Virus record (IMG/VR): IMGVR_UViG_3300042507_007934
Coordinates: 1-26,787 of that record
Direction: 5' to 3' (one strand)
DNA: 26,787 bases
Origin: a virus
Below are positions 3,580 through 26,365 of the stretch, in pieces; positions within the stretch are counted from its first letter, which is position 1, and every line of letters begins with the position of its first letter. A program made the translations under genes and the position numbers. The notes beneath the pieces were generated by a model, which ran no database searches, was not told the DNA's origin, and saw nothing but the letters and a program-made list of their open reading frames with translations.

Positions 3580-3582
3580 ACC

Positions 3583-6238: not shown

Positions 6239-6239
6239 A

Positions 6240-7792: not shown

Positions 7793-10700
7793 GAGTAAGA
7801 TTAATATTGTCCAAGTAAATCCAAATACTTTTGAACTACAAACATATAGTTCAACTGATGAAACCCTTATATCTAATCAAATAGTTGAAGGAAAGTTTGG
7901 ACTTCCTGGTGATTATGTAGAGTATTTTGTTTATTCTTTTGATAAGTTACTTCTTTATCCTGTAGATACTCCTGCAATTTCTTCTACAGATTATACTGTA
8001 ACTAATGACCCTTATCTACAAAACCAAGGATTTTATTCTACAATTAATATTAATCCTCTTGTAGATGCTTCTGAATTAGGATTTGATGTAGGTCAATTCT
8101 ATACAATATATAATTTCTTAAAAACTAAACTTAGCTCTTCAGTAGACAATCAATTTTATATTACTGAAATTAGCTCTGATAGAACTGAAGTTAGATTAGA
8201 TACAAACAATATCCCTGATGTTTCTTGGGTACCTTTAGCTCGAGAATTTCAAGCTCAAATCTCAGCTAGTTTTCCATACTACACAGATTTTTATCTGAAT
8301 TTTGGTTATAATAATCTTATTATAGCTAATAATATTTTAGTTGATACTTCTATTGCTTCTAATCCTACAATTTTAGTTAAGCTTTATGAACCCCTACCCC
8401 AACAATATACTTTAAAAAGTGAATGTTGGATTGTAGAACAAGCAGCAGAATCTGTAGCATACCAAATAGAAATTTCTCAACTGTTTGATGTTGAAGATGA
8501 TACTATCCAAATCTCAGGCCCCAATTTTAATTTATCTGAAAAAGATTTAATTAATAATTCTACAACCTACCAGGATTTTGCCTCTTTAACTGCAACTACA
8601 GTTTCAGGTTCATTTAATCAATTAGATAGCCTTTTAGAAGAAAAGGGAATTGAAATTAATGTTGATTATTCTTTATATAACAATTTTATTTTCCTCTCTT
8701 CAGCTTACCAAAGATTATACAACTTTAGATATAAACTAGAATTACTTGAAGAATTATCTGCTACTTCTTCTCTATTATCCAGTATTACAGGTTCAGCTTT
8801 AACATCTTCTGGAGTTTCATCTTCACTAGCAATTAACAATTATCAAATAAATGATATTATTCGAAACTTTGATGGGTACGAATATTATCTATATTACGAG
8901 TCTTCTTCTACTACATGGCCTAAGCAAAACGCTCTTCCGCCCTATACTTTATATTCCACAACTTCACCTGAAGGTATAACCTGGTTTACCTCTCAATCTA
9001 TAGTTGCTAATGACTATGATCAAAATAATTCCAACAATCTTTATTGGAGTATTCCTGAATATATAAGAGAAGACACTCAAAACGAGCCCTATGTACTTTT
9101 TAGTAACATGGTAGGTCAGAGTTTTGATAACAGTTGGCTTTATACTAAAGATCTAAGTAATCGATATAATACAGATAACAGAATTAATTTTGGTATCTCT
9201 AAAGATCTTGTAGCAGATGCTATTAGATCTTTTGGAGTTAAACTTTACCAAAACAATTTCTCATCTAACGATCTTTATATTGCATATTTAGGTTACAACC
9301 CCGAAACCGGGGGTTATTTACCCCCTACTGGGTCTGAATTAATTACAAACTATGTTACTTCATCAGCAGATCCTGTACCTTTAGATGATGTAAATAAAAG
9401 AATCTATAAAAGAATCTATCACAACTTACCTTATCTTTTAAAGAAAAAAGGCACAGTAGATGGGTTGAAAGCTCTTATTACCATCTATGGTATTCCTGAT
9501 ACTATTTTAAGAATATCTGAATTTGGAGGTAAAGATAAAATTAACTCTAACGATTGGGATTTTTGGCAACAAAAATTTAATTACAAATATGATCTTGTAA
9601 AGGATGATACTATCTCTACCCCATTATTTTTAAATAGTACTTGGGGATCAGAAGACAATCGTCCCCAAACTGTAACATTCAGATTTAAAACCCCAGGAGT
9701 TAAATCAGCTTTAACTTTCCCTTCTCAAAGCTTATTTGTAACAGACTCAACACCCAATAATGTTGTTTTAGGGTTACAATACAATCTTTCCAATCACTCT
9801 AGTGGATCCTATAGTGGTTCTATTCTTAATCCTGAATATGAATACGCTAATTTAGTACTCTACCCATATATAACAGATCTCACAACTTCAGCAAGTGTTT
9901 ATTTACCTTTCTTTGATGGGGGTTGGTGGAATGTAGCACTTACTAGAGATGCCGATAATTGGAATTTATATGCTGCTAATAACATTTATAATGGAGATGA
10001 TGGCAGTCAATTAGGCTTTATAGCTTCTGCCTCACTTAATGCCTCTTCAGGACCTTATGCAGCATCAGTTTCAGCTTCATTTGGAAGTGATTTTGGTAAT
10101 GATATTTCTATATTCAAAAAATTCTCAGGATCTCTCCAGGAGATAAGATACTACACTCAACCTATTGCAGTTTCTAGCTTTGAGGATTTTACAATGAATC
10201 CTGATTCTATAGAAACTACATTATGGGATGGAGCTCCCCTACAATTAGCTTTTAGAGGTAATTTAGGTGGAGAATTATACACTGAATCTATCTCTACTCA
10301 TCCTAAAGTTGCTGGTTCTTGGATTACTACATCTTCATTTGAGGGGGATCACAGTAATTTTATTATAGGATCCAATAATTTTACCCCAAATACCGAAACT
10401 GTATATTTTGAACAGCCTATAGCAGGTATTAAAAACGCAGTTTCTAACAAAATTAAACCTATATCTTCTAGTCTCCCCTCAGGTGATACTCTTTCAAGAT
10501 ATATTACTATAGAACAAAATACTGAAGCTGAAAATAATTACACTAATAATGTTAATTATGCTGAAATAGCATTTTCTCCTCAAAACGAAATAAATGAGGA
10601 CATTATGGATCAGCTTGGATTCTTCAATATGGGAGAATTTATAGGAGATCCTAGACAACGTTTCTCTGAAGCAACTTCTTACCCTGATCTAGATCTTTTA

Positions 10701-13244: not shown

Positions 13245-13250
13245 TATCAA

Positions 13251-14981
13251 GTGGCTGAAAAAAGAATAGCTAATAAAAGAGTTGATACTGATGGTGGTAT
13301 CTGGGTAGATAGACGTTTAGCTTTTAATAAATTCAATCTCCCTATAATCGAGTCTGGGTGGCAAAATTATTTCCTTACCATAGACAACGATGGAATTACC
13401 TCTCTAGCCCAGGGAATGTCAGGAACTAGTGGAGCAGGTACAGCAGGAACATCAGGCCTTTCTAATGGCACTTCAGGCACCTCAGGTACTTCAGGCGCAA
13501 GAGGAACTTCAGGCACATCAGGCACATCCGGTGTGGGTTCCGCAGGCACCTCAGGAGCTACTGGTACTTCAGGAGCCCCAGGCACTTCAGGCACTTCGGG
13601 AGCCCCAGGTACTTCAGGAGTTCCAGGTAGTTCAGGTACTTCAGGAGCTCAAGGCACTTCAGGCACATCAGGTGCTCCTGGCAATCCTGGTACCTCAGGC
13701 ACTTCAGCTCCAGGTATAACTTCAGGTACTTCTGGTGTGGGTTCACCTGGAAGTTCAGGCACCAACGGTACTTCAGGAGCCAATGGTACTTCAGGCATAA
13801 ACGGATCTTCGGGCACATCAGGCTTTAGAGGCACTTCAGGCACCTCAGGTATTAATGGTACTTCGGCCACTAGCGGCACTTCAGGTACTAATGGTACAAC
13901 AGGTACTTCCGGAACCAGTGGTACATCTGGTATTAATGGTACCGCCGGTACTTCAGGAGCTCAAGGAACAGGGGGAACAAGCGGAACCTCAGGGGCTCAA
14001 GGTGATAAAGGAGCTCAAGGAACAGGAGGAACAAGCGGAACAAGCGGAACTTCAGGGGGGGCTGGTGCTGCCGGTACTTCTGGTACTTCTTCTACAAGTG
14101 GTTCTACCTGTGGAAATGCTGTAGCTTTTCAATCAGCCGCAATTCTTCAAAGTACAGCTCAAAACGCCCAATTAAGATTTAGAAGACTTTATACCCTCCC
14201 AGTATTAGCTAACCAAGCAGGAGGAATTTCTACTACTCCTTCATCTGAGATGTATAATTTTAATAATCCTTCTTATACTGGAGGCACTACAGAAAGCCCA
14301 GTTACGGTTCTTAATGCCACTATCCCCTCTAATTTCGCTAATGCTATAGCTAATTCTTTAACATCCCCAGTAACTTATGAAGGAGATCTTTTAGACCAAG
14401 ATCCCCTATATGCAGGTGAAGTAGCTAATATGCTTCCCATGGATACGGTTATGTATACTACTTATGCCCAAAACCCAGACCCATCAACAGCACCTGCTTA
14501 CAGAAGACCTTATTTAGCTACTAATTTTTCTTTTATAGGAAATAATGCAGCTCAAGACCTTTCAGATGCTTCATTTATAGTTTGTATGGTGGTTTTTGGT
14601 TTAACTCCTAAACCTGCTCATTTAGAAACATTCTGGGGTCCCGATATATATTATAATCCTTATAATAATATTCTTAGTACTAATAATCCTCAAATAATTG
14701 AATACAATGTTAGATTTATAGGACCTATAATCCCTGACAATCCATTTTTAAGTGAAACTTTTACTAGAGCTACTAATAATTGGAGGTCTACAGGTGTAGC
14801 AGATGTTGCCGGGTATAACCATTATGGGATAGGTTGGACTATAATTAATCCTGATACTCCTGAAGATGATGAAGGTTATATTGTGTTAAATCCTGAAAGT
14901 TTAGGTAATATCAATACTATGATTAGAGGAAGGTGGGGTCATGTATTTAAGATTTGTCAACAACCTTTACCTCAAGTTTAA
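13251..14981 (+). CDS. Collagen-like tail fibre protein with Gly-X-X repeats
   Basis: A 576-aa protein in three parts. Residues 1-56 form a short head ([18 protein letters not shown]..). Residues of about 57-286 are an almost unbroken Gly-X-X array, mostly GTS with APG, AQG, INGT and VGS variants, expected to form a collagen-like triple helix. The C-terminal 290 residues are aromatic-rich and globular ([47 protein letters not shown]), a plausible trimerisation or receptor-binding tip. The start chosen is GTG: GTG-GCT-GAA here parallels ATG-GCT-GAG in the preceding gene, and there is no better ATG upstream. It lies 6 bp after the giant tail gene, as expected for a fibre assembled onto it. Confidence 0.8.
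13418..14103 (+). repeat. Degenerate 9-bp DNA repeat encoding the Gly-Thr-Ser array
   Basis: Tandem degenerate copies of a 9-bp unit (GGCACTTCA, GGTACTTCA, GGAACATCA and similar) encode the collagen-like stretch. The region is more GC-rich than its surroundings and keeps several other frames open on both strands; these are by-products of the repeat. Third positions vary (GGC/GGT/GGA, ACT/ACA/ACC, TCA/TCC/TCT), so the array is old or under selection against perfect repeats. It could still expand or contract by slippage. Confidence 0.85.
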
Positions 14982-14984
14982 GAT

Positions 14985-15007
14985 AACTTGGTAATAGGTT
15001 TTATTTT
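14985..15007 (+). terminator. Weak hairpin plus T-rich tract, possible terminator
   Basis: AACTT (14985-14989) can pair with AGGTT (14996-15000) across a 6-nt loop, including one G-U pair, and is followed by TTATTTT. The stem is short, so this is at best a weak terminator. It lies in the 59-bp gap between the collagen-like fibre gene and the next motif-preceded gene, where a transcript boundary would make sense. Confidence 0.25.
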
Positions 15008-15010
15008 CAT

Positions 15011-15019
15011 ATATTTATA
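15011..15019 (+). promoter_or_regulatory. ATATTTATA motif, candidate late regulatory site (copy 3)
   Basis: This copy ends 21 bp before the ATG at 15041, the widest spacing of the five. The spacer contains ACGCATTTAAAC directly before the ATG, similar to ACGCGTTTAA before the ATG at 23868. This is the copy that best fits a normal promoter with a short leader. Confidence 0.5.
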
Positions 15020-15040
15020 ATAAAAAATACGCATTTAAAC

Positions 15041-15700
15041 ATGGGATATTTAAACAACAGTGTAGTAACAGTAGATGCTATCTTAACAGATGTAGGTAGA
15101 GAGTTACTTGCTAAAAACGACGGTTCATTCCGTATTACTCAATTTGCTCTATCTGACGACGAAATCGATTATACACTTTATAATCCAAGCAACCCTTCAG
15201 GTTCAGCTTTTTATGGTCAAGCAATTGAAAACATGCCTCTTCTAGAAGCATTTCCTCTTGTAACCCAAGAAATGAAGTATGTGTTAACTACACTACCTCG
15301 TGGAACCTCTAAGATGCCAGTACTTGATCTAGGATATGCAGCAATTACTCTAAAACAAGGAGCTTCACTTGCTATTACACCTCAGACACTAAACTATTTA
15401 GGTGGCCTCAATACATTCGAATCTAGCGGTTATACCGCAACTATATCCGATGTACGCGTGCTTAACACATTTAACGGGGTAGGCATCAACACTCCAGAAG
15501 CCAACGCACTAAACAGTACTACAACGGTAGGTACAAACGTATCTAAAACAGTTGTTGGTACAACAATCAATATGACTGCAACTACTGTAAATACATTGTT
15601 TGGTTCTAATACAATCTTACAAGCCACTTTAACAGTAGTAGGTAGAGATTCAGGTGCTCGTATTACAATTCCTGTAACTATTACTAAAACTTCAGCTTAA
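15041..15700 (+). CDS. Probable virion structural protein (219 aa)
   Basis: The N-terminal half is reminiscent of a small structural protein common in environmental T4-like phages: VDAILTDVGRELLAKNDGSF, then RITQFALSDDEIDYTLYNP, AIENMPLLEAFPLVTQEMKY and LDLGYAAITLKQGASLAI. The C-terminal 90 residues are Thr/Val/Asn-rich and resemble an Ig-like beta-sandwich (SGYTATISDVRVL ... LQATLTVVGRDSGARITIPV). There are no catalytic motifs. It starts a new transcription block, with an ATATTTATA motif upstream, and is followed after 2 bp by another structural-looking gene. Its codon choice looks somewhat more balanced than that of the flanking tail genes, which may mean high expression. The exact virion location is unknown. 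Confidence 0.7.
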   Translation: MGYLNNSVVTVDAILTDVGRELLAKNDGSFRITQFALSDDEIDYTLYNPSNPSGSAFYGQAIENMPLLEAFPLVTQEMKYVLTTLPRGTSKMPVLDLGYAAITLKQGASLAITPQTLNYLGGLNTFESSGYTATISDVRVLNTFNGVGINTPEANALNSTTTVGTNVSKTVVGTTINMTATTVNTLFGSNTILQATLTVVGRDSGARITIPVTITKTSA

Positions 15701-15702
15701 TT

Positions 15703-16743
15703 ATGTCGTTTAAAAGATTAACCCCTTCAGATTTTTTAGTATCAGCTGATTCAGTTACAGCCCCTTGTTGGACAAATGATATTCAAACATTATCTAGTTT
15801 TTATACTTCTTCTACTCAAGAAGCAAGTTCACAAGGAGATTATGTATTAGCAGTTTATAACACAGTTTCATCTTACGATAGTGCCTCAATCCAATTTTAT
15901 ATTGGATATTGCGATGCTTATGGTTCGGGTTCAACTGCTTACAATTCTGCTATCCCTGGTCTTTCTCCTTCAAGAACTTTATATGGTCAATACCGAAACC
16001 TTATTCTTGAAGATGAAAACTCTGAGTTTGCATTTGGATCAGTTTCTAGCTCTCAATTCTTTGCTATCTCAGTAGAAAGAGCTAATTATAAACAATCCCT
16101 TCTTCCTGGATCTCTAAACCTAACCCTTTCAGGTTCTGCAGCTAATACTACATTAAAGTTAACAGATAATAGTAACGATATTTCTGTTGTGCCTTATATC
16201 AATGGAACTAGAGTTTATCAAATCATCTCAGGTTCAAATGGTACTGCTGCTTCTGCTGCGCCAACAGGAACAACTACACGTGGTTATACCGCTTCGGGTT
16301 CTTATGGATGGTTTATTCCTGATATGGGTACTATTTTATTAAATGCTAAAGCTCTTCAACTTCAAGTTGTAAATGGAGGTGTTGCTTTAGTTCCTCAAAC
16401 CGGTAGCTCAAATATAGCCAATGGTTTAAACAATACAATAATGTTTAGATCCATTAATAGTGGTTCTAGCTTTGCTTTAAATTCTCAAGAAAACGTTACT
16501 TCGGATTATGTATTCATAAGACCGCAAAACGCAGAATTTAACTACACAACCAACCCATCCTTCATCTCAGGTTCAACTGGTGAGGTAATTTACTCTCAAT
16601 ACATCAACAACCCACAAACTTATATTACAACTGTAGGTTTATATAACGATGCAAACGAGTTATTAGCTGTAGCAAAATTATCTAGACCATTAGTTAAAGA
16701 TTTTACCAAAGAAGCATTAATCCGCGTTAAGCTAGATTTTTAA
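15703..16743 (+). CDS. Probable virion/fibre protein sharing a C-terminal module with the next gene
   Basis: A 346-aa, Ser/Thr/Asn-rich, beta-type protein without catalytic motifs or a signal peptide. Its last 80 residues contain EFNYTTNPSFISGSTGE, then TYITTVGLYNDANELLAVAK and LSRPLVKDFTKEALIRVKLD. Almost the same layout ends the following gene (EFNLTLNPSAQ, YVTTVGLYNEAQDLLAVAKL, LTILVNLD), so the two are paralogs at the C-terminus with unrelated N-terminal regions. The shared module probably docks both proteins to the same virion partner. It lies 2 bp after the 219-aa structural gene and 5 bp before its partner. Fibre, whisker or decoration protein are all possible. Confidence 0.7.
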   Translation: MSFKRLTPSDFLVSADSVTAPCWTNDIQTLSSFYTSSTQEASSQGDYVLAVYNTVSSYDSASIQFYIGYCDAYGSGSTAYNSAIPGLSPSRTLYGQYRNLILEDENSEFAFGSVSSSQFFAISVERANYKQSLLPGSLNLTLSGSAANTTLKLTDNSNDISVVPYINGTRVYQIISGSNGTAASAAPTGTTTRGYTASGSYGWFIPDMGTILLNAKALQLQVVNGGVALVPQTGSSNIANGLNNTIMFRSINSGSSFALNSQENVTSDYVFIRPQNAEFNYTTNPSFISGSTGEVIYSQYINNPQTYITTVGLYNDANELLAVAKLSRPLVKDFTKEALIRVKLDF

Positions 16744-16748
16744 AATGA

Positions 16749-17717
16749 ATGGGAGCTTGGAAACAATTTTTAACCTCAGACATAATTGTTACCCCATTTC
16801 AGGTTAACAAAGGTTTTAGCTTACCTTATACCCAATGGGCAACCGGATCAGATGGGCAAATAGTAGGTATCGATAGATTTTTTGGACTTAGCGGTAGTTG
16901 GTTTAGCAATAAATCAACTACTGGTACTCTTACTGTCGAATACCAAACTTTAATTTACGATTCTGTAAAACAACTCTACTACTCTAATTTTTTGAGTAGT
17001 AGTACAGGAGACAATGCTGTACCTCCTACTCTTATCCCCGGTTCTACCCCTTCAGGTTCAGGTAATGTTTTAATAGGGTCTGGTTCAGGTCCTCTATACG
17101 ACAATTTCTTACAAAGCACTTTAACTCCACAACGATACTGGAATCCTATAGAAATTTTAGTTTTATCTGTACCTTCAAAAGTTTATGGAGAATATATTGC
17201 TCCTAATACTTTTAGATGGGCTTGTGGCACACCGGGTGTTGAAGGAACTATTGTAGATGATGGGGAAGGTAACCTATTTTCAGGTAGTACTAATGTGGGG
17301 AATATTATTTACCCTCATGGTCTAGCAATCTTAACTTATACTTCTTCTATTTTTGGAGAAGACCTTGCGTTTTGGTTAGGAGAAACAAACATGACTTGTT
17401 CTTTCTCTTCATCCATGACCATATATGAAACACAATATAAATGCACAATCCGAGAAGATGAGTTTAATCTTACACTAAACCCATCAGCTCAAGCCAGTGG
17501 TTCTATAATCACTGTTAATTCAGGATCAGGATCATTTTACCAACCAGGTAATGGAAAACTATTAGATACTGTAACCGGATCTTATTTCTCACCTTATGTA
17601 ACCACTGTTGGTTTATATAATGAAGCACAAGATCTATTGGCTGTAGCCAAATTATCACAACCATTACCTACTTCAAACACAACTGATCTGACAATCCTAG
17701 TAAACCTAGATAGATAA
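16749..17717 (+). CDS. Probable virion/fibre protein, paralog of the preceding gene at its C-terminus
   Basis: A 322-aa beta-rich protein, low in Lys and Arg, with many Ser, Gly, Tyr and Trp residues. The N-terminus reads WKQFLTSDIIVTPFQVNKGF and the middle has Gly/Ser-rich loops (STPSGSGNVLIGSGSG). The C-terminal 80 residues repeat the module of the preceding gene (YVTTVGLYNEAQDLLAVAKL). An ATG at 16745 is in another frame, and the in-frame ATG at 16749 is used here. The stop overlaps the start of the GIY-YIG-like gene as TAATG. Its location in the virion is unknown; the paired arrangement suggests a heteromeric assembly with its neighbour. Confidence 0.7.
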   Translation: MGAWKQFLTSDIIVTPFQVNKGFSLPYTQWATGSDGQIVGIDRFFGLSGSWFSNKSTTGTLTVEYQTLIYDSVKQLYYSNFLSSSTGDNAVPPTLIPGSTPSGSGNVLIGSGSGPLYDNFLQSTLTPQRYWNPIEILVLSVPSKVYGEYIAPNTFRWACGTPGVEGTIVDDGEGNLFSGSTNVGNIIYPHGLAILTYTSSIFGEDLAFWLGETNMTCSFSSSMTIYETQYKCTIREDEFNLTLNPSAQASGSIITVNSGSGSFYQPGNGKLLDTVTGSYFSPYVTTVGLYNEAQDLLAVAKLSQPLPTSNTTDLTILVNLDR

Positions 17718-18160
17718 TGTGGAAATATAATAATGAAGAAATGACTTGCCTTGAAGATTTCCCTCAAGGCACTTATGGTTTTGTATATAGAGTTATACAT
17801 AAACCTAGTGAAATTGCTTATATAGGAAAAAAAGTTTTATTTCATAATATAAAAAAGAAACTTACCAAAAAAGAATTAAATCTGATAGAAGGTCAGGGAC
17901 GACGTCCTGTATATAGATTAACCCAAAAAGAATCAGACTGGAAGACTTATTATGGTTCTGCTAAACCTATTTTAGAACTTATTAGTAATGGAAGATCAGA
18001 CGAATTTGAACGTACTATTATTAAATTAGCTCCTGATAAAAAATTGTTAACTTATTACGAAACTAAATATTTGTTTGTGTATGAAGTTTTAGAAAAGCCT
18101 GATGATTTTTATAATGATAATATTTTAGGTAAATTTTATAGTAAAGATTTTTTTCAATAA
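17717..18160 (+). CDS. GIY-YIG-like nuclease domain protein
   Basis: A 147-aa protein. The first 45 residues contain YGFVYRVIHKPSEIAYIGKK, which fits the paired GIY (here GFVY) and YIG strands of the GIY-YIG nuclease fold. It is followed by DWKTYYGSAKPILELI, as in phage members of this group. The Glu in LLTYYETKYLF is a good candidate for the metal-binding glutamate of the family. The end (DDFYNDNILGKFYSKDF) matches the layout of small phage GIY-YIG-type proteins that lack a separate DNA-binding domain. It could be a stand-alone nuclease, a homing-type enzyme or a DNA-processing protein. It sits at the end of the structural block, coupled by TAATG. Activity is inferred. Confidence 0.7.
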   Translation: MWKYNNEEMTCLEDFPQGTYGFVYRVIHKPSEIAYIGKKVLFHNIKKKLTKKELNLIEGQGRRPVYRLTQKESDWKTYYGSAKPILELISNGRSDEFERTIIKLAPDKKLLTYYETKYLFVYEVLEKPDDFYNDNILGKFYSKDFFQ

Positions 18161-18178
18161 AACCTCAAATTAATTCGT

Positions 18179-18187
18179 ATATTTATC
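18179..18187 (+). promoter_or_regulatory. ATATTTATC motif, candidate late regulatory site (copy 4)
   Basis: This copy has C at the last position. It ends 3 bp before the ATG at 18191 and reads into ACCATG exactly as at 3571-3585, so the two sites are nearly identical over 15 bp. It is the only such site upstream of the block of head-peptide genes at 18191-20869. Confidence 0.42.
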
Positions 18188-18190
18188 ACC

Positions 18191-18817
18191 ATGAAACGTA
18201 CGGAACTCCTCAACCAGATCAAGAATCATATTTTAAAAGAAGTTCAAGTTAAAACTTCTAAAGTATCCAAAGACAACCCTAATATCTTTGTTGTAGCTAA
18301 AGTAACCTACAAACCCGAGGATTACACTAAATATGTTCGATTCGCACAAGGTACATACACAGGAAATTCTCCAGAACAATACCTAAAAAACGCTATCCAG
18401 TTAAGACAAAGAGAAAAAAAAGAATTTGATCCTAATACTTTAAGTTACTATTTCAATCAAGATGGTAACATGGAAAATTATGAGGTTGAATTTATTGAAA
18501 CTGGTTTGTCTGCAAACGAAGCTACAAGAATGGCTAATCAAAAAAACCAAGAACTTGGTATTAAAGATAAGAGATTAGGTGGTTTAGCAGGTGTTTCTAA
18601 TCCTATTGAAGTAGATAAAAAAGATATTATAGGACCTATGAAAGATGGTTTCTACTATATTGATAAAATGGCTTTACCTAAATATAAAACCTTAAAAGTA
18701 GATAAAAAAATTGAAACTGTTATAAATGGTTTCAATAAACTTACTAAGAAGCCTAAATCTTGGACTTATCTTAAAATTACTTCTCAAATCAAGCCTACTA
18801 CATCTTTAACAAAATGA
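18191..18817 (+). CDS. Unrecognised protein with a targeting-like head peptide (208 aa)
   Basis: The first 17 residues (MKRTELLNQIKNHILKE) form a basic amphipathic helix ending in L-K-E, followed by VQVKTS. This has the form of a T4 capsid-targeting head cleaved after L/I-x-E. The body is Lys-rich and mixed alpha/beta (PNIFVVAKVTYKPEDYTKYV, YEVEFIETGLSANEATRMAN, GFYYIDKMALPKYKTLKV), with no catalytic motif that I recognise. The segment around residues 95-150 reads like a small GIY-YIG-neighbour or helix-turn-helix-like region, but too weakly to claim. It overlaps the next gene as ATGA and opens a run of genes with similar heads. Packaging in the head is an inference. Confidence 0.65.
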   Translation: MKRTELLNQIKNHILKEVQVKTSKVSKDNPNIFVVAKVTYKPEDYTKYVRFAQGTYTGNSPEQYLKNAIQLRQREKKEFDPNTLSYYFNQDGNMENYEVEFIETGLSANEATRMANQKNQELGIKDKRLGGLAGVSNPIEVDKKDIIGPMKDGFYYIDKMALPKYKTLKVDKKIETVINGFNKLTKKPKSWTYLKITSQIKPTTSLTK

Positions 18818-19743
18818 TTAAGTTAAGTTCTCTTTTAAAAGAAATCAAAGTTATATCACCATATGATAGACTAGTTATACAGTTATCAGCTACGGATGAA
18901 TATGGTGAAGCACGAGATAAAACTACACTTATTTTTCCAAAACATGGAGACCAATTACATCCAGAAGATAAAGCATATCTTGAATCAGAAGAAGTAGGTA
19001 TTCCTGAGGAAAGTGGATTTTTTTTCTATTTAGATCTTGCTTTAATGTATTTTGAAAATCAGATTCAACAATTAGGAAATAACCCAGATAGATCTCAAGT
19101 AGAAGATGTAATAATAGAATTAGTAAAAGATTTATCTAAATATATTGAGGAAAATGAAGCTTATTCTATAGAGGATACAGGTCCAAGAGATGATATTGCA
19201 AATAATATTCTAGAGAAATTTAAAGAACTTTTCCCAACCGTTAACCCCCACTTTGTAGGTCTGGGGTGGTTCACTTTTTCTAATGGTTTAGTAGAATCTT
19301 TAGTAGAGGGCGATCCTTCATTTCTTATAGACTTTACCTTTGGGGGTAATGTAAATGAAATTAGAGTAGTAGCTCCTAATCTATCCATAGCTGATTACTT
19401 AAATTCTCCTCAAAATACAAAAGATGTTAGAGATTGGGCGTGGGAATATTCTAGAAATAATTTGGACCGTACTGAACATCAAGAAATCTATAACGACTAC
19501 ATACAGCGTATAAAACCTGGAAGTTTTCGACTTGTTGACCCTGATAGGGATCCAATGGGTGCTACAGACTATAATTTTGATAAAGTTTTTAAGGACCCAC
19601 TTAATGTAGCCACATTCAATTTCTCCACAGAACAAGTATGGTACTTTGCTTTTTCCTCTAACTTTTTAGAGGGAGGTTTTAAATTCTGGGATTTAGAACC
19701 ATTTTTTGCTGGAGATAAACTTATTGAAGCCGTAACTTTCTAA
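18814..19743 (+). CDS. Unrecognised two-unit protein with repeated E-I-K/R-V junctions (309 aa)
   Basis: The head MIKLSSLLKEIKVISP is almost the same as that of the following gene, with L-K-E at 8-10. A second junction, NVNEIRVVAP, lies at about 179-188 and divides the protein into two units. Unit 1 (about 11-178) is acidic and helical (LALMYFENQIQQLGN, VEDVIIELVKDLSKYIEENE) and ends in a beta region. Unit 2 (about 183-309) is Trp/Tyr/Phe-rich (VRDWAWEYSRNNLDR, VWYFAFSSNFLEGGFKFWD). No enzyme motif is recognised. It overlaps the previous gene as ATGA and stops 4 bp before a paralog in head and layout. The junction repeat is seen directly; cleavage there is a hypothesis. Confidence 0.68.
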   Translation: MIKLSSLLKEIKVISPYDRLVIQLSATDEYGEARDKTTLIFPKHGDQLHPEDKAYLESEEVGIPEESGFFFYLDLALMYFENQIQQLGNNPDRSQVEDVIIELVKDLSKYIEENEAYSIEDTGPRDDIANNILEKFKELFPTVNPHFVGLGWFTFSNGLVESLVEGDPSFLIDFTFGGNVNEIRVVAPNLSIADYLNSPQNTKDVRDWAWEYSRNNLDRTEHQEIYNDYIQRIKPGSFRLVDPDRDPMGATDYNFDKVFKDPLNVATFNFSTEQVWYFAFSSNFLEGGFKFWDLEPFFAGDKLIEAVTF

Positions 19744-19747
19744 AGAT

Positions 19748-20869
19748 ATGATTAAATTAGTTAACCTTTTAAAAGAAATTAAAGTTGTTAGTCCAAAAAC
19801 TGAATTGATTTTTTGGCCTGCCCTCTTAAAAGCTTTAAGACGAAATTTTGGAAAAGATTGGAAAATATATAATAATCTTACCACATCTTCCCCCTCAGTT
19901 AAAATCTATAATGCTATCTATAATGCTACTAATAATTTAGAAGATATAAAACAATTTATTGATTCTATTGATGGTTGGAGATCATCTCCCATATCTAGAG
20001 GCCAATTACTAATTTACCCTACAACTATGGCCAGAGGAAAGGTTAAACAGGATATATTGACATCCTATAGACATCCCGAAAGAGAAATCTCTCCTTTAGT
20101 TTTAGATTTTTTTACAAAATTACGCCAACAAGGAATTGCTGATCTTAATACACCCCAGGAGTATTTTTCTTTTATAAAACCCCACTTCCCAGCTGGGGTT
20201 AATGAAATTAAAGTTTTAGATCCTAAAGATATAAATTTTTATGGTAATATACCTGCTTTGGGTATTTTATTTAATTATTCTGATGAGGAACCAGAAATTC
20301 CTTATGAATGGGACGATAAGGAGATACGAAAACTAGTTAAAGGTTTAGGATATAAAGATTGGAAAGATATAGCAGGTGAAGTCACTCACTATTTCCCCCC
20401 AGATGATGAGGATTTTTTAATAACAATTAGAGATCAAGAAAATCGTCCTAATATAGAAGTTAAAGACCTTACTATAGGAATGATTATTAAGAATATTTTA
20501 CAAGACTTCCCTTACGAATCAGATGAACCCATTGAAACTGATAGTTATGTGCCTAAAGTTAAGGATGTTGAAGTTGATAATAGTTTTAAAACAAAACAGA
20601 ATCCAAAATTAAAAGCTCTTATTGAAAAATATAAAGATGAATTAATTGATAAATTTGAATTAGATAGATCTGCTGTAGAAGTAATAGATTACACATATTA
20701 CCCTGAAGTAGGGATTGGATCACCTTATAGCGGATTTGTTAAATCTGTAAAGTTTATCACACCTAAAGATTGGGAAGAAAATAAAAAATATTTTGCTCAA
20801 AATCAAAACTATAGAGAAGCCAAAAATATAAAAATAGGGGGTGTTGATTTAAAATATTATATAAATTAA
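19748..20869 (+). CDS. Unrecognised two-unit protein with repeated E-I-K-V junctions (373 aa)
   Basis: It begins MIKLVNLLKEIKVVSP, nearly the same head as the preceding gene, and carries an internal AGVNEIKVLDP at about 149-159. The first unit (about 11-150) is basic and aromatic (LLKALRRNFGKDWKIYNNL, KQFIDSIDGWRSSPISRG). The second (about 154-373) is acidic and then Lys-rich (EEPEIPYEWDDKEIRKLV, YFPPDDEDFLITIRD, NPKLKALIEKYKDELIDKFE). The differing charge of the two parts suggests that two former genes have fused. No catalytic motif is visible. It is separated by only 4 bp from the upstream paralog and followed by the first 18-bp hairpin repeat. Function is unknown; head packaging is inferred from the head peptide. 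Confidence 0.68.
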   Translation: MIKLVNLLKEIKVVSPKTELIFWPALLKALRRNFGKDWKIYNNLTTSSPSVKIYNAIYNATNNLEDIKQFIDSIDGWRSSPISRGQLLIYPTTMARGKVKQDILTSYRHPEREISPLVLDFFTKLRQQGIADLNTPQEYFSFIKPHFPAGVNEIKVLDPKDINFYGNIPALGILFNYSDEEPEIPYEWDDKEIRKLVKGLGYKDWKDIAGEVTHYFPPDDEDFLITIRDQENRPNIEVKDLTIGMIIKNILQDFPYESDEPIETDSYVPKVKDVEVDNSFKTKQNPKLKALIEKYKDELIDKFELDRSAVEVIDYTYYPEVGIGSPYSGFVKSVKFITPKDWEENKKYFAQNQNYREAKNIKIGGVDLKYYIN

Positions 20870-20877
20870 TAAAAAAT

Positions 20878-20895
20878 ATCTTAAAAGTTAAGCTT
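20878..20895 (+). repeat. 18-bp hairpin direct repeat, left copy
   Basis: ATCTTAAAAGTTAAGCTT occurs here and again, identical, at 22076-22093. It contains a perfect small hairpin (CTTAA, loop AAG, TTAAG). The two copies bracket the three-gene block with shared heads. The left copy is not followed by the CCAAGCTT arm and T-tract that turn the right copy into a terminator. Confidence 0.8.
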
Positions 20896-20910
20896 AGAAA
20901 TAAAATTAAA

Positions 20911-20985
20911 ATGAAAAAACAACTACTTTCCGAAGAATTTACTCGCATGCAAAAGCTTGCAGGCATTGTAAATGAAATTAAAGTA
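20911..20985 (+). repeat. 75-bp coding head repeat, copy A
   Basis: These 75 bp encode the shared 25-residue head. They differ from copy C (21706-21780) at about five positions, by eye, while the DNA after the repeat shows no similarity. The border of similarity falls exactly at the end of NEIKV. Confidence 0.85.
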
Positions 20986-21237
20986 GAACCTCCTATGAAA
21001 TTAAAATTTAAAGAAGGTGTTTACGGTTTTATCTTTGATTCTCAACATGATGAGATTGTAAAAATATTCACATCACCCCCAAGTGAAGCTGAATTAAAAC
21101 GTCTTTCAGGCATGTTAGATGAATATGATATGATATTTACAGACCTTAAAACAGTTAATGAATTGTTTGAAATTGAAAGTAAAGAACAATTATTAGCCGA
21201 TAAAGGATTGAGTCAAGTATTAGATTGGTGGCAATAA
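20911..21237 (+). CDS. Small protein, shared-head family member A (108 aa)
   Basis: The first 25 residues (MKKQLLSEEFTRMQKLAGIV then NEIKV) are almost identical to those of the next two genes; the body then diverges completely. The head is an amphipathic helix ending in V-N-E, close to the L/I-x-E form of prohead protease sites. The body (about 26-108) begins EPPMKLKFKEGVYGFIFD and continues as a small alpha/beta domain ending DKGLSQVLDWWQ. I do not recognise it. It follows the left 18-bp repeat and lacks a Shine-Dalgarno; the start is preceded by AAAATTAAA, as in the next gene. Shared head plus unique body suggests a common delivery address with different cargo. Confidence 0.68.
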   Translation: MKKQLLSEEFTRMQKLAGIVNEIKVEPPMKLKFKEGVYGFIFDSQHDEIVKIFTSPPSEAELKRLSGMLDEYDMIFTDLKTVNELFEIESKEQLLADKGLSQVLDWWQ

Positions 21238-21243
21238 ATTAAA

Positions 21244-21318
21244 ATGAAAAAACAACCACTCTCCGAAGAATTTCAACGCATGCAAAAGCTTGCAGGTATT
21301 ATATCTGAAATTAAAGTA
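21244..21318 (+). repeat. 75-bp coding head repeat, copy B
   Basis: This is the most diverged of the three copies, with changes clustered near the middle (CAACGC for ACTCGC) and before the junction (ATATCT for GTAAAT). The 5' flank (AAATTAAA before ATG) matches that of copy A, so the repeat unit includes the initiation region. Confidence 0.82.
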
Positions 21319-21702
21319 ACATCTGGTTCTTTCCCTCTCCCTAAAGGGTGGAAAGAACTACCTGTAGATAATGACCCAGATCTAGAAGAAGATATTGAAA
21401 TTGAAAGTTATGGTGCCCCTATGGAAGGGTGGGATGAAGATCATCCTGATATTGTAAGCATCTACTCAACCCCAGAAATTGATGCCGAGACCGGAGAACC
21501 AATAGAAAAAAAGCAATACTATGTAGAAGTCTATATATCTTATGGTGATTGGGCAGAAGATATGGAAAAATATGATACATTTATAGGAGCTAAAACAAAA
21601 GCTATAGAAATAATGAATGATATATCTAGTGATTGGCCTGATGATGAAGATTGGGATACCGATTTTGATAATGACGATGATGATAACAATAATGAAATTT
21701 AA
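21244..21702 (+). CDS. Very acidic small protein, shared-head family member B (152 aa)
   Basis: It has the same 25-residue head as its two neighbours, here reading FQRMQKLAGIISEIKV with I-S-E before the junction, an exact match to I-x-E. The body is highly acidic throughout (DNDPDLEEDIEIESYG, GWDEDHPDIVSIYS) and ends in an Asp/Asn-only tail (DWDTDFDNDDDDNNN). The middle contains a small beta strand and helix region (KKQYYVEVYISYGDWAEDME). The charge pattern recalls DNA-mimic proteins, but acidic phage proteins are common and the likeness is weak evidence. It lies 6 bp after member A and 3 bp before member C. Function is unknown; delivery with the phage DNA is inferred from the head. Confidence 0.66.
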   Translation: MKKQPLSEEFQRMQKLAGIISEIKVTSGSFPLPKGWKELPVDNDPDLEEDIEIESYGAPMEGWDEDHPDIVSIYSTPEIDAETGEPIEKKQYYVEVYISYGDWAEDMEKYDTFIGAKTKAIEIMNDISSDWPDDEDWDTDFDNDDDDNNNEI

Positions 21703-21705
21703 AAA

Positions 21706-21780
21706 ATGAAAAAACAACTACTCTCAGAAGAATTTACCCGCATGCAAAAGATGGCAGGCATTGTAAATGAAATTAAAGTA
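21706..21780 (+). repeat. 75-bp coding head repeat, copy C
   Basis: Nearly identical to copy A: about five differences in 75 bp, three of them silent and two in one Leu-to-Met codon. The match stops at the end of NEIKV, as in the other copies. Confidence 0.85.
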
Positions 21781-22059
21781 AAACCTTCATTACCAAAAAA
21801 CGTAGAAGCATTCAAACAATTTATAATCTCAGAATTAGGTGAGGTTTTAGAAGATTACATTGAAAGTGGTGAAAACTTATTTGGTGAGCCCTTTGATGCC
21901 CCTCAATATGAAGAATTAAAAAATTCTATTAATAGCTTAACAACATTAGAAGATATAGAAAATGTCGTTGAGGATTTTTTATATGAAAATGTCTATGAAA
22001 AAGATTACGAAGTAAAAGATTTTTTTCAATATATCTATAGAAATTTTATTGAAGGATAA
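21706..22059 (+). CDS. Small acidic protein, shared-head family member C (117 aa)
   Basis: The head is MKKQLLSEEFTRMQKMAGIV then NEIKV, differing from member A at one residue (M for L). The body starts KPSLPKNVEAFKQFIISELG and is a helical acidic domain (EVLEDYIESGENLFGEP, LEDIENVVEDFLYENVYE) ending in aromatics (VKDFFQYIYRNFIEG). No family is recognised. It begins 3 bp after member B and is followed by the right 18-bp repeat and terminator. Together the three genes look like a cassette row in which one head has been joined to different bodies. Confidence 0.66.
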   Translation: MKKQLLSEEFTRMQKMAGIVNEIKVKPSLPKNVEAFKQFIISELGEVLEDYIESGENLFGEPFDAPQYEELKNSINSLTTLEDIENVVEDFLYENVYEKDYEVKDFFQYIYRNFIEG

Positions 22060-22075
22060 AATATATTTTTAAAAC

Positions 22076-22093
22076 ATCTTAAAAGTTAAGCTT
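22076..22093 (+). repeat. 18-bp hairpin direct repeat, right copy
   Basis: Identical to 20878-20895. Its last bases (AAGCTT) form the left arm of the terminator hairpin that follows, so the small CTTAA/TTAAG hairpin and the terminator stem cannot both form at once. Confidence 0.8.
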
Positions 22094-22115
22094 GGTTTTC
22101 CAAGCTTTCTTTTTT
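22088..22115 (+). terminator. Intrinsic terminator after the shared-head gene block
   Basis: A perfect 8-bp stem AAGCTTGG / CCAAGCTT with a TTTT loop (22088-22107) is followed by TCTTTTTT. Flanking AAAAG and CTTTTT can extend the pairing across a small internal loop. It separates the head-peptide genes from the primase gene that starts at 22127 and is the strongest terminator candidate in the window. Confidence 0.75.
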
Positions 22116-22126
22116 ATCTTATCTAC

Positions 22127-23059
22127 ATGGTTAATCAACTACTTGTAGCGCTTGTCAATTCTGTTTTAGGGCAGGGGAAATCAACTGCAAGAGGTAACCA
22201 AGCCCACACCTGCCCATTTTGCCATCACCATAAACCCAAATTAGAAATAAATCTTAGTGAAGGAAATGGAGATAAAAACCCGTGGCATTGTTGGGTGTGT
22301 GGGAAAAAAGGAGTAAAGCTAATCACTCTATTTAAACAAATTGGAGCTCCTGAAGATAAACTAAACGAATTACGTGCTTTAGTTAAATCTTCATATAAAG
22401 ACGAGCAAACCCAAACCCACGAAGAAGCTAAACTACCTGAGGAATTTAAACCTATTTCTCAAATCACCGAAAATGATATTGTAGGGAGACATGCCATTGC
22501 TTACCTTAAAAAACGAGGTATTACAAAGGCAGATATTCTAAAATACAATATAGGATATTGTGAAAGTGGCAACTTTAAAAACATGATCATAATCCCTTCT
22601 TACAATATTTCAGGTAAACTTAACTATTTCACAGCCCGGAATTTTGATTCTACATCCCCAGTAAAATATAAAAATCCACCTCTTAGCCGAAATATAATTC
22701 CTTTTGAGCTTTATATAAATTGGTCTTCACCGCTTATATTGTGCGAAGGACCATTTGATGCCATAGCCATCAAACGTAATGCTATCCCGCTTCTAGGAAA
22801 AAATATACAAGCTAATTTGATGAAGCGTATTGTAACTTCTCAAGTTGAAAAAATTTATATTGCTTTAGATAAGGATGCCCAAAAAGATGCTTTAAAATTT
22901 ACTGAATTACTCTTGGCTGAGGGTAAAGAAGTTTATATCGTTGACCTGGATGAAAAAGATCCGAGTGAAATGGGATTTGAAAACTTTACTAAACTTATAC
23001 ACGAAACATATCCCACAAATACATTTGACTTAATGTCAAGAAAAATAGCACTATTATGA
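22127..23059 (+). CDS. DNA primase, gp61-like, with zinc ribbon and Toprim domain
   Basis: A 310-aa primase that would make RNA primers for phage DNA replication (T4 gp61 is 342 aa). The N-terminal zinc ribbon has C29-P-F-C32, then WHCWVCGKKG with C55 and C58. The Toprim core is visible as LILCEGPFDAIAIK (Glu207, Asp211) and IYIALDKDAQKDALK (Asp248, Asp250), the acidic residues expected to bind metal. Between them, LKKRGITKADILKYNIGYC and NFKNMIIIPSYNISGKLNYF fit the DnaG/gp61-type catalytic core. It lies directly after a terminator, has no ATATTTATA motif, and overlaps the following nuclease gene by 4 bp (ATGA), as expected for a separate replication transcript. No helicase domain is present. 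Confidence 0.88.
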   Translation: MVNQLLVALVNSVLGQGKSTARGNQAHTCPFCHHHKPKLEINLSEGNGDKNPWHCWVCGKKGVKLITLFKQIGAPEDKLNELRALVKSSYKDEQTQTHEEAKLPEEFKPISQITENDIVGRHAIAYLKKRGITKADILKYNIGYCESGNFKNMIIIPSYNISGKLNYFTARNFDSTSPVKYKNPPLSRNIIPFELYINWSSPLILCEGPFDAIAIKRNAIPLLGKNIQANLMKRIVTSQVEKIYIALDKDAQKDALKFTELLLAEGKEVYIVDLDEKDPSEMGFENFTKLIHETYPTNTFDLMSRKIALL

Positions 23060-23844
23060 TAGAAAAAGGAACTAAAATTTATAAAAAAAGCGTTACAAGA
23101 ATTCTTGAAATAGACCAAGATGCAAAACAGGTAAATTTTTTAGATACACGTTTTTACAAAAAGGGAGACAATTACTACCCTTCAATCACATCTGTTTTGC
23201 AGTACTTCCCTAAAAACAAATTCTTTGAATCCTGGCTTAAAGATGTAGGCCACAATTCAGATGTTATTGTTAGAAGAGCAGCAGATGAAGGAACACAAGT
23301 TCACGAAGCAATTGAAGCCTATTTGGAAGGAAAACAAATTTCCTGGTTAAACGAACAAGGTCAAGCTAACTATTCTTTAGATGTTTGGAAAAATATCTTA
23401 AAATTCGCTGAGTTCTGGAAGCAAGTTAAACCGACCCTCATCAAAAGTGAAATTCACCTATTTTCGGATGAATCTAAAATTGCCGGAACCTGTGACTTGG
23501 TTCTTGAAATTGAAGGCGAGATGTGGATTCTGGATATTAAAACTTCAAACAGCCTCCACACAAGCCAAGATCTTCAAATTGCAGCTTATGCTAAAATGTG
23601 GAACGAAAGCTTTGAAGAAAAAGTTACTCGCACTGGTATTCTCTGGCTTAAATCAGCTAAAAGAGGACCAGACAAATCTGGAAAGAAAATTCAAGGTAAA
23701 GGGTGGGAAGTATACGAGTCAAATCGTTCAATAGAGGAAAACTGGAAATATTTTCAAAATATCCTTGAATTGTACCATCTTGAAAATCCTGATGCCAAAC
23801 CTGCATTTGAGACTCTCCCTTTAACAATTCAATTAGAGGGTTGA
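23056..23844 (+). CDS. PD-(D/E)XK superfamily nuclease (RecB/exonuclease-like)
   Basis: A 262-aa nuclease. It shows the RecB/Cas4-type motif series: SEIHLF with a possible metal-binding Glu near 132, GTCDLVLE with Asp147, then WILDIKTS with Asp160 and Lys162, and Q171-D-L-Q174-I-A-A-Y178, the usual QxxxY-type helix. The N-terminal part (YYPSITSVLQYFP, RAADEGTQVHEAIEAYLEG) matches the lead-in of phage exonucleases of this type. There is no cysteine cluster of the Cas4 iron-sulfur kind. It is coupled to the primase by ATGA, so a role in replication, recombination or host DNA breakdown is likely. Endo- versus exonuclease action cannot be told from sequence. Confidence 0.85.
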   Translation: MIEKGTKIYKKSVTRILEIDQDAKQVNFLDTRFYKKGDNYYPSITSVLQYFPKNKFFESWLKDVGHNSDVIVRRAADEGTQVHEAIEAYLEGKQISWLNEQGQANYSLDVWKNILKFAEFWKQVKPTLIKSEIHLFSDESKIAGTCDLVLEIEGEMWILDIKTSNSLHTSQDLQIAAYAKMWNESFEEKVTRTGILWLKSAKRGPDKSGKKIQGKGWEVYESNRSIEENWKYFQNILELYHLENPDAKPAFETLPLTIQLEG

Positions 23845-23852
23845 TATTTATA
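23844..23852 (+). promoter_or_regulatory. ATATTTATA motif, candidate late regulatory site (copy 5)
   Basis: It begins on the last base of the nuclease stop codon and ends 15 bp before the ATG at 23868. The spacer holds the perfect 10-bp palindrome AAACGCGTTT (23856-23865), which merges into the start codon. It would restart late-type expression after the primase/nuclease pair. Confidence 0.45.
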
Positions 23853-23867
23853 CGCAAACGCGTTTAA

Positions 23868-24671
23868 ATGATCAGTCTTATTCAATTACTAGAAGAAGTC
23901 TCTTCCAGACCCAAAGCTATTATATTAGCAGGTTCTCCGGGTGCTGGAAAGACTTCTTTTGTTGAAAATTTTATACAGCCTTTTAAATTAGAGGTTTTAA
24001 ATATAGACGATTATTATAAACAAAACTTACAACAGGCTGGAGTTTCTTTAAATCTTAAACAAGCCACAGCTGAGGAAAGAAGCAAATCATCTTCAGCGAT
24101 GCATAAATCCATTAAAGAATACCAAGCAGCTTTAAACGAAAAAGTTAAACAAAAAGCTAACATCCTCATAGACTCAACCTCAGGCTCTTTTAAAAAAACA
24201 GCTGAGCTAAAAAATTATTTAGTAAAAAATGGGTATGATGTTTTTATGGTATATATGTTTGCTTCACTAAAAAAGTCTTTGAGAAGAAATGACACTAGAT
24301 TTGATAGATCCAATGGAAAAGATAGAAGTCTTCCCCCGTCAATTGTTTTACAAACATGGGTTAATGTTAGTAAAAATTACGACAATTATAGAACCTTTTT
24401 TGGCGATAATTTTATCTCGATTGTAAACGACGATCTTCCTAAAACTTTATCTTCCCTAAAAGACATAAAGCAAATCTATTTAGAGCCATATAAGATTACA
24501 GACTCTAAACCTAAAACTCCTCAGGAGCAGGCTAAATCTGATTCGCTTAATAAAGAAAATGATTTGTTTATCACGAATTTTTGGAAATCAGATAAAACCC
24601 AAGACATTATAGATAATTCAATTTCAAAAAAAGAAGCACAAGCCAAAATTAAGTCATTTCTTCAATCATGA
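23868..24671 (+). CDS. Zeta-toxin-like P-loop kinase with a targeting-like head
   Basis: A 267-aa protein. After a short head (MISLIQLLEEVSSRPK, with L-E-E at 8-10) comes AIILAGSPGAGKTSFVENF, a clear Walker A (Gly22 to Ser30), and then VLNIDDYYK, as in zeta-toxin and polynucleotide-kinase-like P-loop enzymes. ANILIDSTSG and YDVFMVYMFASLKKSLRRND fit the core strands, and an Arg-rich segment (RRNDTRFDRSNGKDR) fits a phosphate-binding lid. The C-terminal 60 residues are polar and helical. Zeta proteins phosphorylate UDP-N-acetylglucosamine, but the substrate here is not evident, and no epsilon-type antitoxin is adjacent. It has an ATATTTATA motif upstream and an ATGA overlap downstream. Confidence 0.78.
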   Translation: MISLIQLLEEVSSRPKAIILAGSPGAGKTSFVENFIQPFKLEVLNIDDYYKQNLQQAGVSLNLKQATAEERSKSSSAMHKSIKEYQAALNEKVKQKANILIDSTSGSFKKTAELKNYLVKNGYDVFMVYMFASLKKSLRRNDTRFDRSNGKDRSLPPSIVLQTWVNVSKNYDNYRTFFGDNFISIVNDDLPKTLSSLKDIKQIYLEPYKITDSKPKTPQEQAKSDSLNKENDLFITNFWKSDKTQDIIDNSISKKEAQAKIKSFLQS

Positions 24672-26365
24672 GTACAGATAAAATACCTGGAGGTCTAGCA
24701 AAAGGAATGTCTTTATCAGACATTGCTAAACACCATAAACTTCCCTTAAAATCCCTTCAGTCAAAACTTGAACAAGGTATTAAAACTGAAATGGAACACA
24801 CTACAGATAAAGCTATAGCTCGCGAAATTGCTATGGATCATATTTACGAAGACCCAAATTATTATTCTAAATTAAAACAAATAGAGACTGAGGGTACTTG
24901 TGGGTATACAATGGATGCTGAAACCGGAGAAGAATTAGGAACACCAGGTGGTTTGGAAGAAGGTGATAAAAGAGGCTTAGACATGTATGCTTTAGAACTT
25001 CAAAAAGGTCTAGAAGAAGCTATCTTAAATCATTTACTTAACGAAAATGAGAATATAACAACCAGTACTTACCCATTTGAAGTTACAGATAGGACTTATG
25101 ATGATGAAGATGATTCACTAATCTCAGTTTCATATGAATTAACAACCCCCTACAATTCCTATAAAGTTGAGTTTTATTCTGGAGAATATAGTCCTGAATC
25201 AAAAAAATTTGATCTATCATTCGGTGTAAATATCGGATATTTAAATAAAATTGATACCTTTCAAATGACAGGTGAAGGGAATGCTAAAAAAATATTTAAT
25301 ACTATCCTTAATATTGTAGAAGATTTTATAAATAAAGAAGATGTTAAGAAAATAGTAGTAGATGGAACTGATGAAAAACGTAAAAGAATTTATAAAGCTA
25401 TTTTTTCATCCACACCTCCAAACATATCTGATAAGATTGAACTTAAAGAAGCTAACCTAAAAGGCACAATGACATTCCGTAATTGGACTGATAGTATTGA
25501 AGAAGATGGTCAAAAAACATCCGATAAAAATATGGATGATTATAAAAAACAAAACAACCCAAGTGGTAAAGTAAAAGACCCGTTTGGTTTAAATCAATTT
25601 GCTCGCGAGTTAGTTATGGGTTTAGAAGAAGCAGATCCTAAAACCGGTACAGGTAAAAAACCTGAAGGGTCATCTCGTAGATTATACACAGACGAAGATC
25701 CAAGCGATACTGTTAAAGTAAAATTTTCTACTAAACAAGACATTATAGATACTTTATCTAAAGCTTCTTTCAAATCAAAATCACACGCTCGCCAATCTCA
25801 AATTATTAACCTGATTCATCAGCGAGTAAGAGCAGCCTACGAAAGAGCTAAAGATCCTGATGTTAAAAGACGTTTAAAAACAGCTTTAGATTATGCTGAA
25901 CAAAGAAAAGAAGCATCTAAAGAAAAAACACAACGTTTAAAAAAAATAAAAGAAGCATCTGACCCACAAGCTGGAACAGCTATACCTTATGGATCAGGTT
26001 ATAAAGAACTCATACCTGAAATAACAAAATTTATGTTAGATAAAGGGATGAATTTAAGACCTCTCCCTAAAGTAAAATTTATAGAAGACGATAAAGAAAA
26101 TGCTGAAGATATTTTAGGCAGAACAGCATTTTACAATCCTGAAGAAAAATCAGTTACATTATATACTTTAGGTCGTCACCCTAAAGATATTTTACGTTCA
26201 TTTTGTCACGAAATGATACACCACTTACAAAATGTAGAAGGTAGATTACCTAAATTTTATACTACTAACACTCAAGAAGATTCCGCTTTAAATGATATTG
26301 AGGAAGAAGCCCACAGATTAGGTAGTATGACAATGAGAGAATTTGAAGATACAATAAAAAAATAG
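24668..26365 (+). CDS. Multidomain protein: DUF5661-like N-terminus and HExxH metallopeptidase C-terminus
   Basis: A 565-aa mosaic. Residues of about 5-80 match the DUF5661 pattern (GIKTEMEHTTDKAIAREIAM then DHIYEDPNYYSKL). About 125-260 is an alpha/beta domain (YKVEFYSGEYSPESKKFDLS, MTGEGNAKKIFNTILNI, GTDEKRKRIYKAIF). About 355-430 is a Lys/Arg-rich helical segment (SHARQSQIINLIHQRVRAAY). The C-terminus has H514-E-M-I-H518 followed by Glu545-547, a zincin-type HExxH with a plausible third ligand. Linkers contain L/I-x-E-A at 115-118, 259-262, 319-322 and 427-430, close to the domain borders. Two of them share a longer form, (Y/F)A.EL..GLEEA. It is coupled to the kinase by ATGA. Peptidase activity is inferred from the motif only. 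Confidence 0.75.
   Translation: MSTDKIPGGLAKGMSLSDIAKHHKLPLKSLQSKLEQGIKTEMEHTTDKAIAREIAMDHIYEDPNYYSKLKQIETEGTCGYTMDAETGEELGTPGGLEEGDKRGLDMYALELQKGLEEAILNHLLNENENITTSTYPFEVTDRTYDDEDDSLISVSYELTTPYNSYKVEFYSGEYSPESKKFDLSFGVNIGYLNKIDTFQMTGEGNAKKIFNTILNIVEDFINKEDVKKIVVDGTDEKRKRIYKAIFSSTPPNISDKIELKEANLKGTMTFRNWTDSIEEDGQKTSDKNMDDYKKQNNPSGKVKDPFGLNQFARELVMGLEEADPKTGTGKKPEGSSRRLYTDEDPSDTVKVKFSTKQDIIDTLSKASFKSKSHARQSQIINLIHQRVRAAYERAKDPDVKRRLKTALDYAEQRKEASKEKTQRLKKIKEASDPQAGTAIPYGSGYKELIPEITKFMLDKGMNLRPLPKVKFIEDDKENAEDILGRTAFYNPEEKSVTLYTLGRHPKDILRSFCHEMIHHLQNVEGRLPKFYTTNTQEDSALNDIEEEAHRLGSMTMREFEDTIKK

Follow-up and report, generated by a model that had tools for sequence, protein, structure and literature searches.

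We analyzed a 26,787-nucleotide stretch of viral DNA (IMG/VR virus record IMGVR_UViG_3300042507_007934; here, the window), a fragment (26.8 kb) of the genome of a T4-like phage, in which genes for unrelated proteins begin with short segments of a few recurring types, here called heads. Seven of the ten genes at 17717 to 24671 start with a head of 10 to 22 residues ending in [LIV]-x-E, and all seven open reading frames reported in the initial annotation were found. It is very probable that these heads are prohead-targeting propeptides acting like the T4 capsid-targeting sequence (CTS), which is the best explanation of the observations as a whole. The evidence comprises the presence in relatives of a prohead protease of the T4 type (S77), the T4 register of some heads, the match of one head class to the C terminus of the scaffold, the exchange of heads between bodies, and a modeled head lying outside its fold. 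With this evidence, the capsid-targeting reading of the initial annotation is strongly supported, while its whole interpretation, an arsenal of injected proteins, stands in part.

The initial annotation had described the heads as amphipathic helices followed by unrelated bodies. Once the heads were removed, no pair of bodies matched (blastp, E <= 0.1), so that the bodies are indeed unrelated, and the [LIV]-x-E ending likewise held. The term "amphipathic" was the weakest part of the description: a hydrophobic-moment rule discriminated weakly (odds ratio, 3.1), and we therefore used sequence-specific tests in place of that score.

The heads form distinct classes, A to D, a point missed by the initial annotation. 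Class A (consensus MISLxxLLKE) is represented in the window, where the heads and their genes, the cargo slot, and the genes at 24668 and 3583 lie on the plus strand, by MIKLSSLLKE followed by IKV (18814 to 18843; gene at 18814 to 19743, 309 amino acids), MIKLVNLLKE followed by IKV (19748 to 19777; gene at 19748 to 20869, 373 amino acids), and MISLIQLLEE followed by VSS (23868 to 23897; kinase gene at 23868 to 24671). Class B [consensus (I)LSEEFxRMQKLAGIxxE] opens three consecutive genes for putative cargo proteins: MKKQLLSEEFTRMQKLAGIVNE followed by IKV (20911 to 20976; gene at 20911 to 21237, 108 amino acids), MKKQPLSEEFQRMQKLAGIISE followed by IKV (21244 to 21309; gene at 21244 to 21702, 152 amino acids, with an acidic body that has no assigned function), and MKKQLLSEEFTRMQKMAGIVNE followed by IKV (21706 to 21771; gene at 21706 to 22059, 117 amino acids). 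The head at 18191 to 18241, MKRTELLNQIKNHILKE followed by VQV, is the weakest of the seven and only a weak relative of class C (consensus MKKSELKxLIKE); its gene (18191 to 18817) encodes 208 amino acids with a body of no assigned function. Class D (consensus MDNFDLKKYLAExKLxxxE) has no member in the window and six consecutive ones in relative G004; among the matches listed, its motif NFDLKK[YF]LxE was N-terminal at 124 of 133 distinct sites. Sought in related phage genomes, the same heads were found, for example in L003, L004, L010, G004, and Flavobacterium phage immuto. The last of these, cultured on Flavobacterium sp. LMO8, has all four head classes as well as the scaffold tail described below.

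Peptide mapping of T4 internal protein (IP) IPIII assigned residues 4 and 7 to targeting and residues 8 and 10 to processing (PMC9026906). The class A heads of the window (18814, 19748, and 23868) have this register, with hydrophobic residues at 4, 7, and 8 and E at 10; classes B to D differ in layout.

Class B leads to the scaffold. Five of six relatives encode an S77 (T4-type) prohead protease (PF03420, above cut-off), followed in T4 order by the scaffold and capsid genes. The scaffold, taken as the product encoded between the protease and capsid genes, has a C terminus that matches the RMQKLAGI of class B heads. It ends in RWQKLAGIIKS in G001 (the nearest relative), RWQKLAGIIK in immuto, RMRKLAGLI in G004, RMRELAFGKK in G005, RMKKLAGIVK in Microcystis phage Mel-JY01, and RIKRLAGL in Rhodothermus phage RM378. 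An AlphaFold model of the scaffold showed the tail as a separate helix (residues 401 to 411) behind a low-confidence linker, with E400 as the glutamate of the site. In relatives, the capsid protein retains such a site, [LIV]xE, around residue 60 to 65, comparable to T4 LTE-65.

Scans of IMG/VR for R[MW]QKLAGI set no condition on position; the counts are a sample, referring to the matches listed. The motif lay within 8 residues of the stop at 183 of 215 distinct sites, and 165 of these 183 belonged to the scaffold, by homology or by a neighboring capsid gene. Another 29 of the 215 sites were in N-terminal heads and three elsewhere. The position of the putative cleavage site depends on which end carries the motif: [LIVM]xE follows it by 2 to 5 residues in 31 of 32 non-C-terminal copies, and precedes it at exactly positions -9 to -7 in 139 of 165 scaffold tails, with neighboring offsets nearly empty. 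Body, site, and tag thus follow one another in the scaffold, and tag, site, and body in the cargo, which is the arrangement needed for release by one protease. RIKQLMGL, our guess at the scaffold tail of a second lineage, was dropped after yielding only 9 scattered matches, which serve as a rough control for motif abundance.

Some proteins carry the tag at the C terminus. In L139, L141, L195, L206, L276, L282, L286, and L315, R[MW]QKLAGI lies close to the stop of a protein that is not recognizable as scaffold. Those in L139, L141, and L195 start with a head as well, which recalls the processing of T4 Alt at its two ends.

The heads also cluster near the head genes. Across six genomes, [LIV]xE heads start 83 of 167 genes between the SegE-like gene and the capsid gene versus 100 of 492 genes elsewhere (p=1.3e-12), and a rule based on published T4 work (hydrophobic residues at 4, 7, and 8; E at 10) selects 11 of 167 versus 2 of 492 (p=1e-5); as gene calls were simple and the region was picked with the finding known, these p-values are supportive, not decisive. 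The heads are predicted to be short helices, and one could suppose that they stay uncleaved and serve membrane association, oligomerization, or binding of a host-cell partner. We regard this as quite improbable, as it leaves three things unexplained: the match to the scaffold terminus, the position of [LIV]xE before the tag in the scaffold but after it in cargo, and the clustering near head genes.

The kinase gene at 23868 allowed conservation of a single head to be followed across orthologs. The "kinase" of the initial annotation proved to be a P-loop kinase of the zeta-toxin/polynucleotide-kinase-like type (PF06414, 4.8e-16), and Foldseek gave zeta toxin (3q8x/1gvn) as the best matches, with a TM of about 0.5, along with polynucleotide kinases. 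We aligned 37 sequences, namely the window's and 36 orthologs that are 27 to 59% identical to it. M1, L4, L8, and E10 of the head are invariant, as are core residues that include the P-loop; L7 is present in >90% of the sequences. In the AlphaFold model the fold begins at residue 16 with a predicted local distance difference test (pLDDT) score of >90, while the head scores 54. The initial annotation had named heads belonging to a folded domain as grounds against its reading; the kinase head is modeled at low confidence and outside the fold, so that the capsid-targeting reading stood up to this check.

Heads and bodies recombine. The DNA of the window's three class B heads is 83 to 92% identical over the first 66 bases and 100% identical over bases 67 to 75; identity of the B-headed genes then drops to about 30 to 40% directly after EIKV, and upstream of the ATG these genes are mostly unrelated in sequence. 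The repeated unit is therefore the head itself. Among the matches listed, 145 distinct B- or D-headed proteins formed 92 clusters by body, and in five of these clusters both B and D heads occur; in the cleanest B/D swap pairs, bodies 43 to 50% identical stand behind different heads. The bodies of the window behave similarly. The 18814 protein has a relative in L003 (37% identity) with a class B head in place of class A, and the 19748 body corresponds in L003 to two proteins, one A-headed and one B-headed. The 21706 protein has a relative in L010 (68% identity) with a class D head, MENFDLIKYLAEGKLLKE. A headless relative of the 20911 protein in L104/G002 (41% identity) starts MKVKFKDNVYGFIYDSQ and matches the window protein from about residue 29 on, where the body of the latter starts. 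These swaps, together with the headless relative, bear out the modularity proposed in the initial annotation, with the same bodies behind other heads or none.

Near identity of head DNA within one genome could also be read as a remnant of duplication, the proteins being paralogs with diverged bodies and the head having no targeting role. This is extremely unlikely: DNA identity ends sharply at EIKV, the same body occurs behind A, B, D, or no head, the same motif ends a different protein family, the scaffold, and E10 is invariant in kinase orthologs at 27 to 59% identity. A duplication-only origin was rejected on the head swaps.

Six of the headed genes occupy a hypervariable slot (18191 to 22060) between a SegE-like GIY-YIG gene (17717) and the primase gene (22127). 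In G001 (170 kb, the nearest long relative), which is collinear with the window and has a primase 87% identical, SegE adjoins the primase directly and the entire six-gene stretch is missing. At this position L003 has eight genes (seven or eight headed, five consecutive ones of class B), immuto has four headed genes, L004 has two with class B heads, L010 has two with class D heads, and L008 has none, so that the slot content ranges from 0 to 8 genes across relatives. The SegE-like gene (17717 to 18160) is kept at the slot edge in relatives and may help move the slot contents; its label of "NAD synthetase" in phrog_447 and immuto is probably wrong. A similar layout was seen in a different large-phage lineage, where three adjoining genes on a 254 kb contig (L276:9463-10476) start MKITRRQLR[RQ]II[KR]E.

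Few of the bodies can be assigned a function. Pfam searches with 88 body representatives gave essentially no match and no informative domain, and no Pfam/PHROG match linked the bodies to T4 IPs or Alt. Besides the kinase, headed proteins that start MDQLTKFLVRE, with the putative cleavage site after this segment, and continue to AIYGGGFKPPTKGHF combine a cytidyltransferase-like N-terminal part with a 5'-3' deoxyribonucleotidase C-terminal part (L107:4714-7476, minus strand; L111:9227-10906; and many other loci). A nucleotide-metabolism enzyme would be unusual as a packaged protein. A sequence search with the nucleotidyltransferase-like headed protein against the PDB gave nothing firm.

The headed proteins might be packaged and cut and yet be minor core or assembly proteins, like T4 gp67/gp68 and IPIII, rather than host effectors. 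Many bodies are small, some are acidic, and they lack known domains; T4 IPIII, moreover, influences head morphogenesis (PMC9026906). We nevertheless consider an assembly role unlikely, as slot contents differ wholly among close relatives and are absent from G001 and L008, which would be odd for assembly factors, and as some bodies are enzymes (the kinase and the deoxyribonucleotidase/cytidyltransferase-like proteins). This turnover of the slot suggests that host-directed functions fit better than assembly functions.

Several points weigh against prohead targeting and cleavage as we propose them. The window itself contains no protease, scaffold, or capsid gene, all of which are known from relatives. 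The 18191 head is poorly kept: its relative in L003 (77% body identity) starts MKRNEILSLIKEYITTK without LKE at that position, so that this LKE is not conserved. Tag and tail are not identical in genomes with RW scaffolds (immuto and G006), which have RMQ cargo heads, and covariation of the two was seen in one genome, G005 (L006 contig), where the scaffold end RMRELAFGKK and the cargo head EHMQKLAFGE (gene 49486) have LAFG in common. With this single case and the counter-trend of RW scaffolds with RM heads, strict covariation is not claimed. The C terminus of T4 gp22, considered as an origin of the T4 CTS, shows no resemblance to IP heads and was rejected. Packaging and cleavage of the headed proteins are nonetheless strongly supported by sequence, with site conservation as the basis for cleavage.

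We propose the following mechanism for prohead targeting. A headed protein would be made late, and its head helix would dock into the growing prohead at the site of the scaffold terminal helix, as the sequence supports for class B and as we infer for the other classes. The S77 prohead protease would then cut after [LIV]-x-E, leaving the body unattached in the head alongside the packaged DNA; from there it would probably enter the host at infection. By analogy with T4 IPs and Alt, the bodies are likely to be injected with the DNA, and the cargo may have a host-directed role. One protease could release both scaffold (body, I-x-E, tag) and cargo (tag, [LIV]-x-E, body). New genes would arise by fusion of an interchangeable head to any body, with the SegE-primase slot as the site of exchange.

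More broadly, we lean toward the view that the terminal helix of the scaffold is a general ticket for prohead entry, copies of which have been fused, with a protease site placed on the other side, to arbitrary proteins, mostly at the N terminus and sometimes at the C terminus. Such phages would then possess a cargo-loading system that is natural, able to evolve, and equipped with its own swap slot and dozens of injected proteins. If so, this would explain the receptor logic behind capsid-targeting sequences, a matter unsettled in T4, and imitation of the scaffold end would show specifically how recruitment of short targeting peptides may work. A simple sequence rule also gathers otherwise unannotated phage proteins, with at least 92 body families in one small sample and essentially no Pfam domain among them, into a class of probable virion cargo. 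The precedent of T4 IPI and Alt would make the bodies, if injected, candidates for takeover of Bacteroidota hosts or for countering their defenses.

Tail and baseplate genes occupy 1 to 17717 of the window, followed by the SegE-like gene, the six small genes, the primase (22127), an exonuclease (23056), the kinase, and a multi-module protein (24668); the SegE-like, primase, and exonuclease genes are the three of the ten that have no head. The multi-module protein (24668 to 26365, 565 amino acids) is headless and joins DUF5661 and DUF6934 to a HEMIHH peptidase-like motif at its C terminus. In other places these modules form small headed proteins of their own or stand behind a nucleotidyltransferase-like domain that has a head, so that the 24668 protein has the appearance of fused cargo modules. 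Among the baseplate genes, outside the span of the initial annotation, a gene at 3583 to 3972 has a conserved head-like start, MKAQDFKKIIKEAVREAIQEELKDILLE followed by AVRTPK, and may encode another packaged or cleaved protein. The start MKxxxFKKIIKEAVxEAIQEExKDILxEAVRxPK is kept in G001 and G004 and is looser in G005. A collagen-like fiber protein with GTSGTSG repeats (13251 to 14981) matches scattered repeats in large fiber genes of G001.

T4 internal proteins with cleavable targeting peptides are already known; scaffold-tail mimicry and interchangeable head classes appear to be new. The open-licence literature held no report of targeting peptides that copy a scaffold terminus or of a cargo slot whose genes draw on interchangeable head classes, and the motif was not found there. 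A search for virion proteomics of immuto likewise gave nothing. The closest comparison is the T4 CTS of IPI, IPII, IPIII, and Alt, likewise an N-terminal propeptide of 10 to 20 residues that ends in L/I-x-E and precedes unrelated bodies. The S77 protease and variable gene sets are also common to both phage groups, and class A shares the 4/7/8/10 register. The present system differs in having several interchangeable head classes, one of which (class B) equals the scaffold C terminus, as is not seen in T4, in allowing V at P3, and in having many more cargo genes, a dedicated slot, and some C-terminal tags.

Ejection and inner-body proteins of the giant phages SPN3US and phiKZ are similar in that a gp21-type protease removes propeptides of head-packed proteins, but those propeptides are mostly >100 residues and no gp22-like scaffold has been confirmed (PMC5694885), whereas the heads described here have about 10 to 27 residues, those of one class being copies of the scaffold tail. 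A parallel by analogy only is found in Dar/Hdf of P1, myophage head-associated proteins that have a role against host restriction (PMC12810830). In the engineered P22 system, cargo joined to the C-terminal part of the scaffold enters the capsid (PMC9962691). That system works without release by a protease, whereas the loading proposed here would be natural, with the tag at the N terminus of the cargo and a cleavage site behind it.

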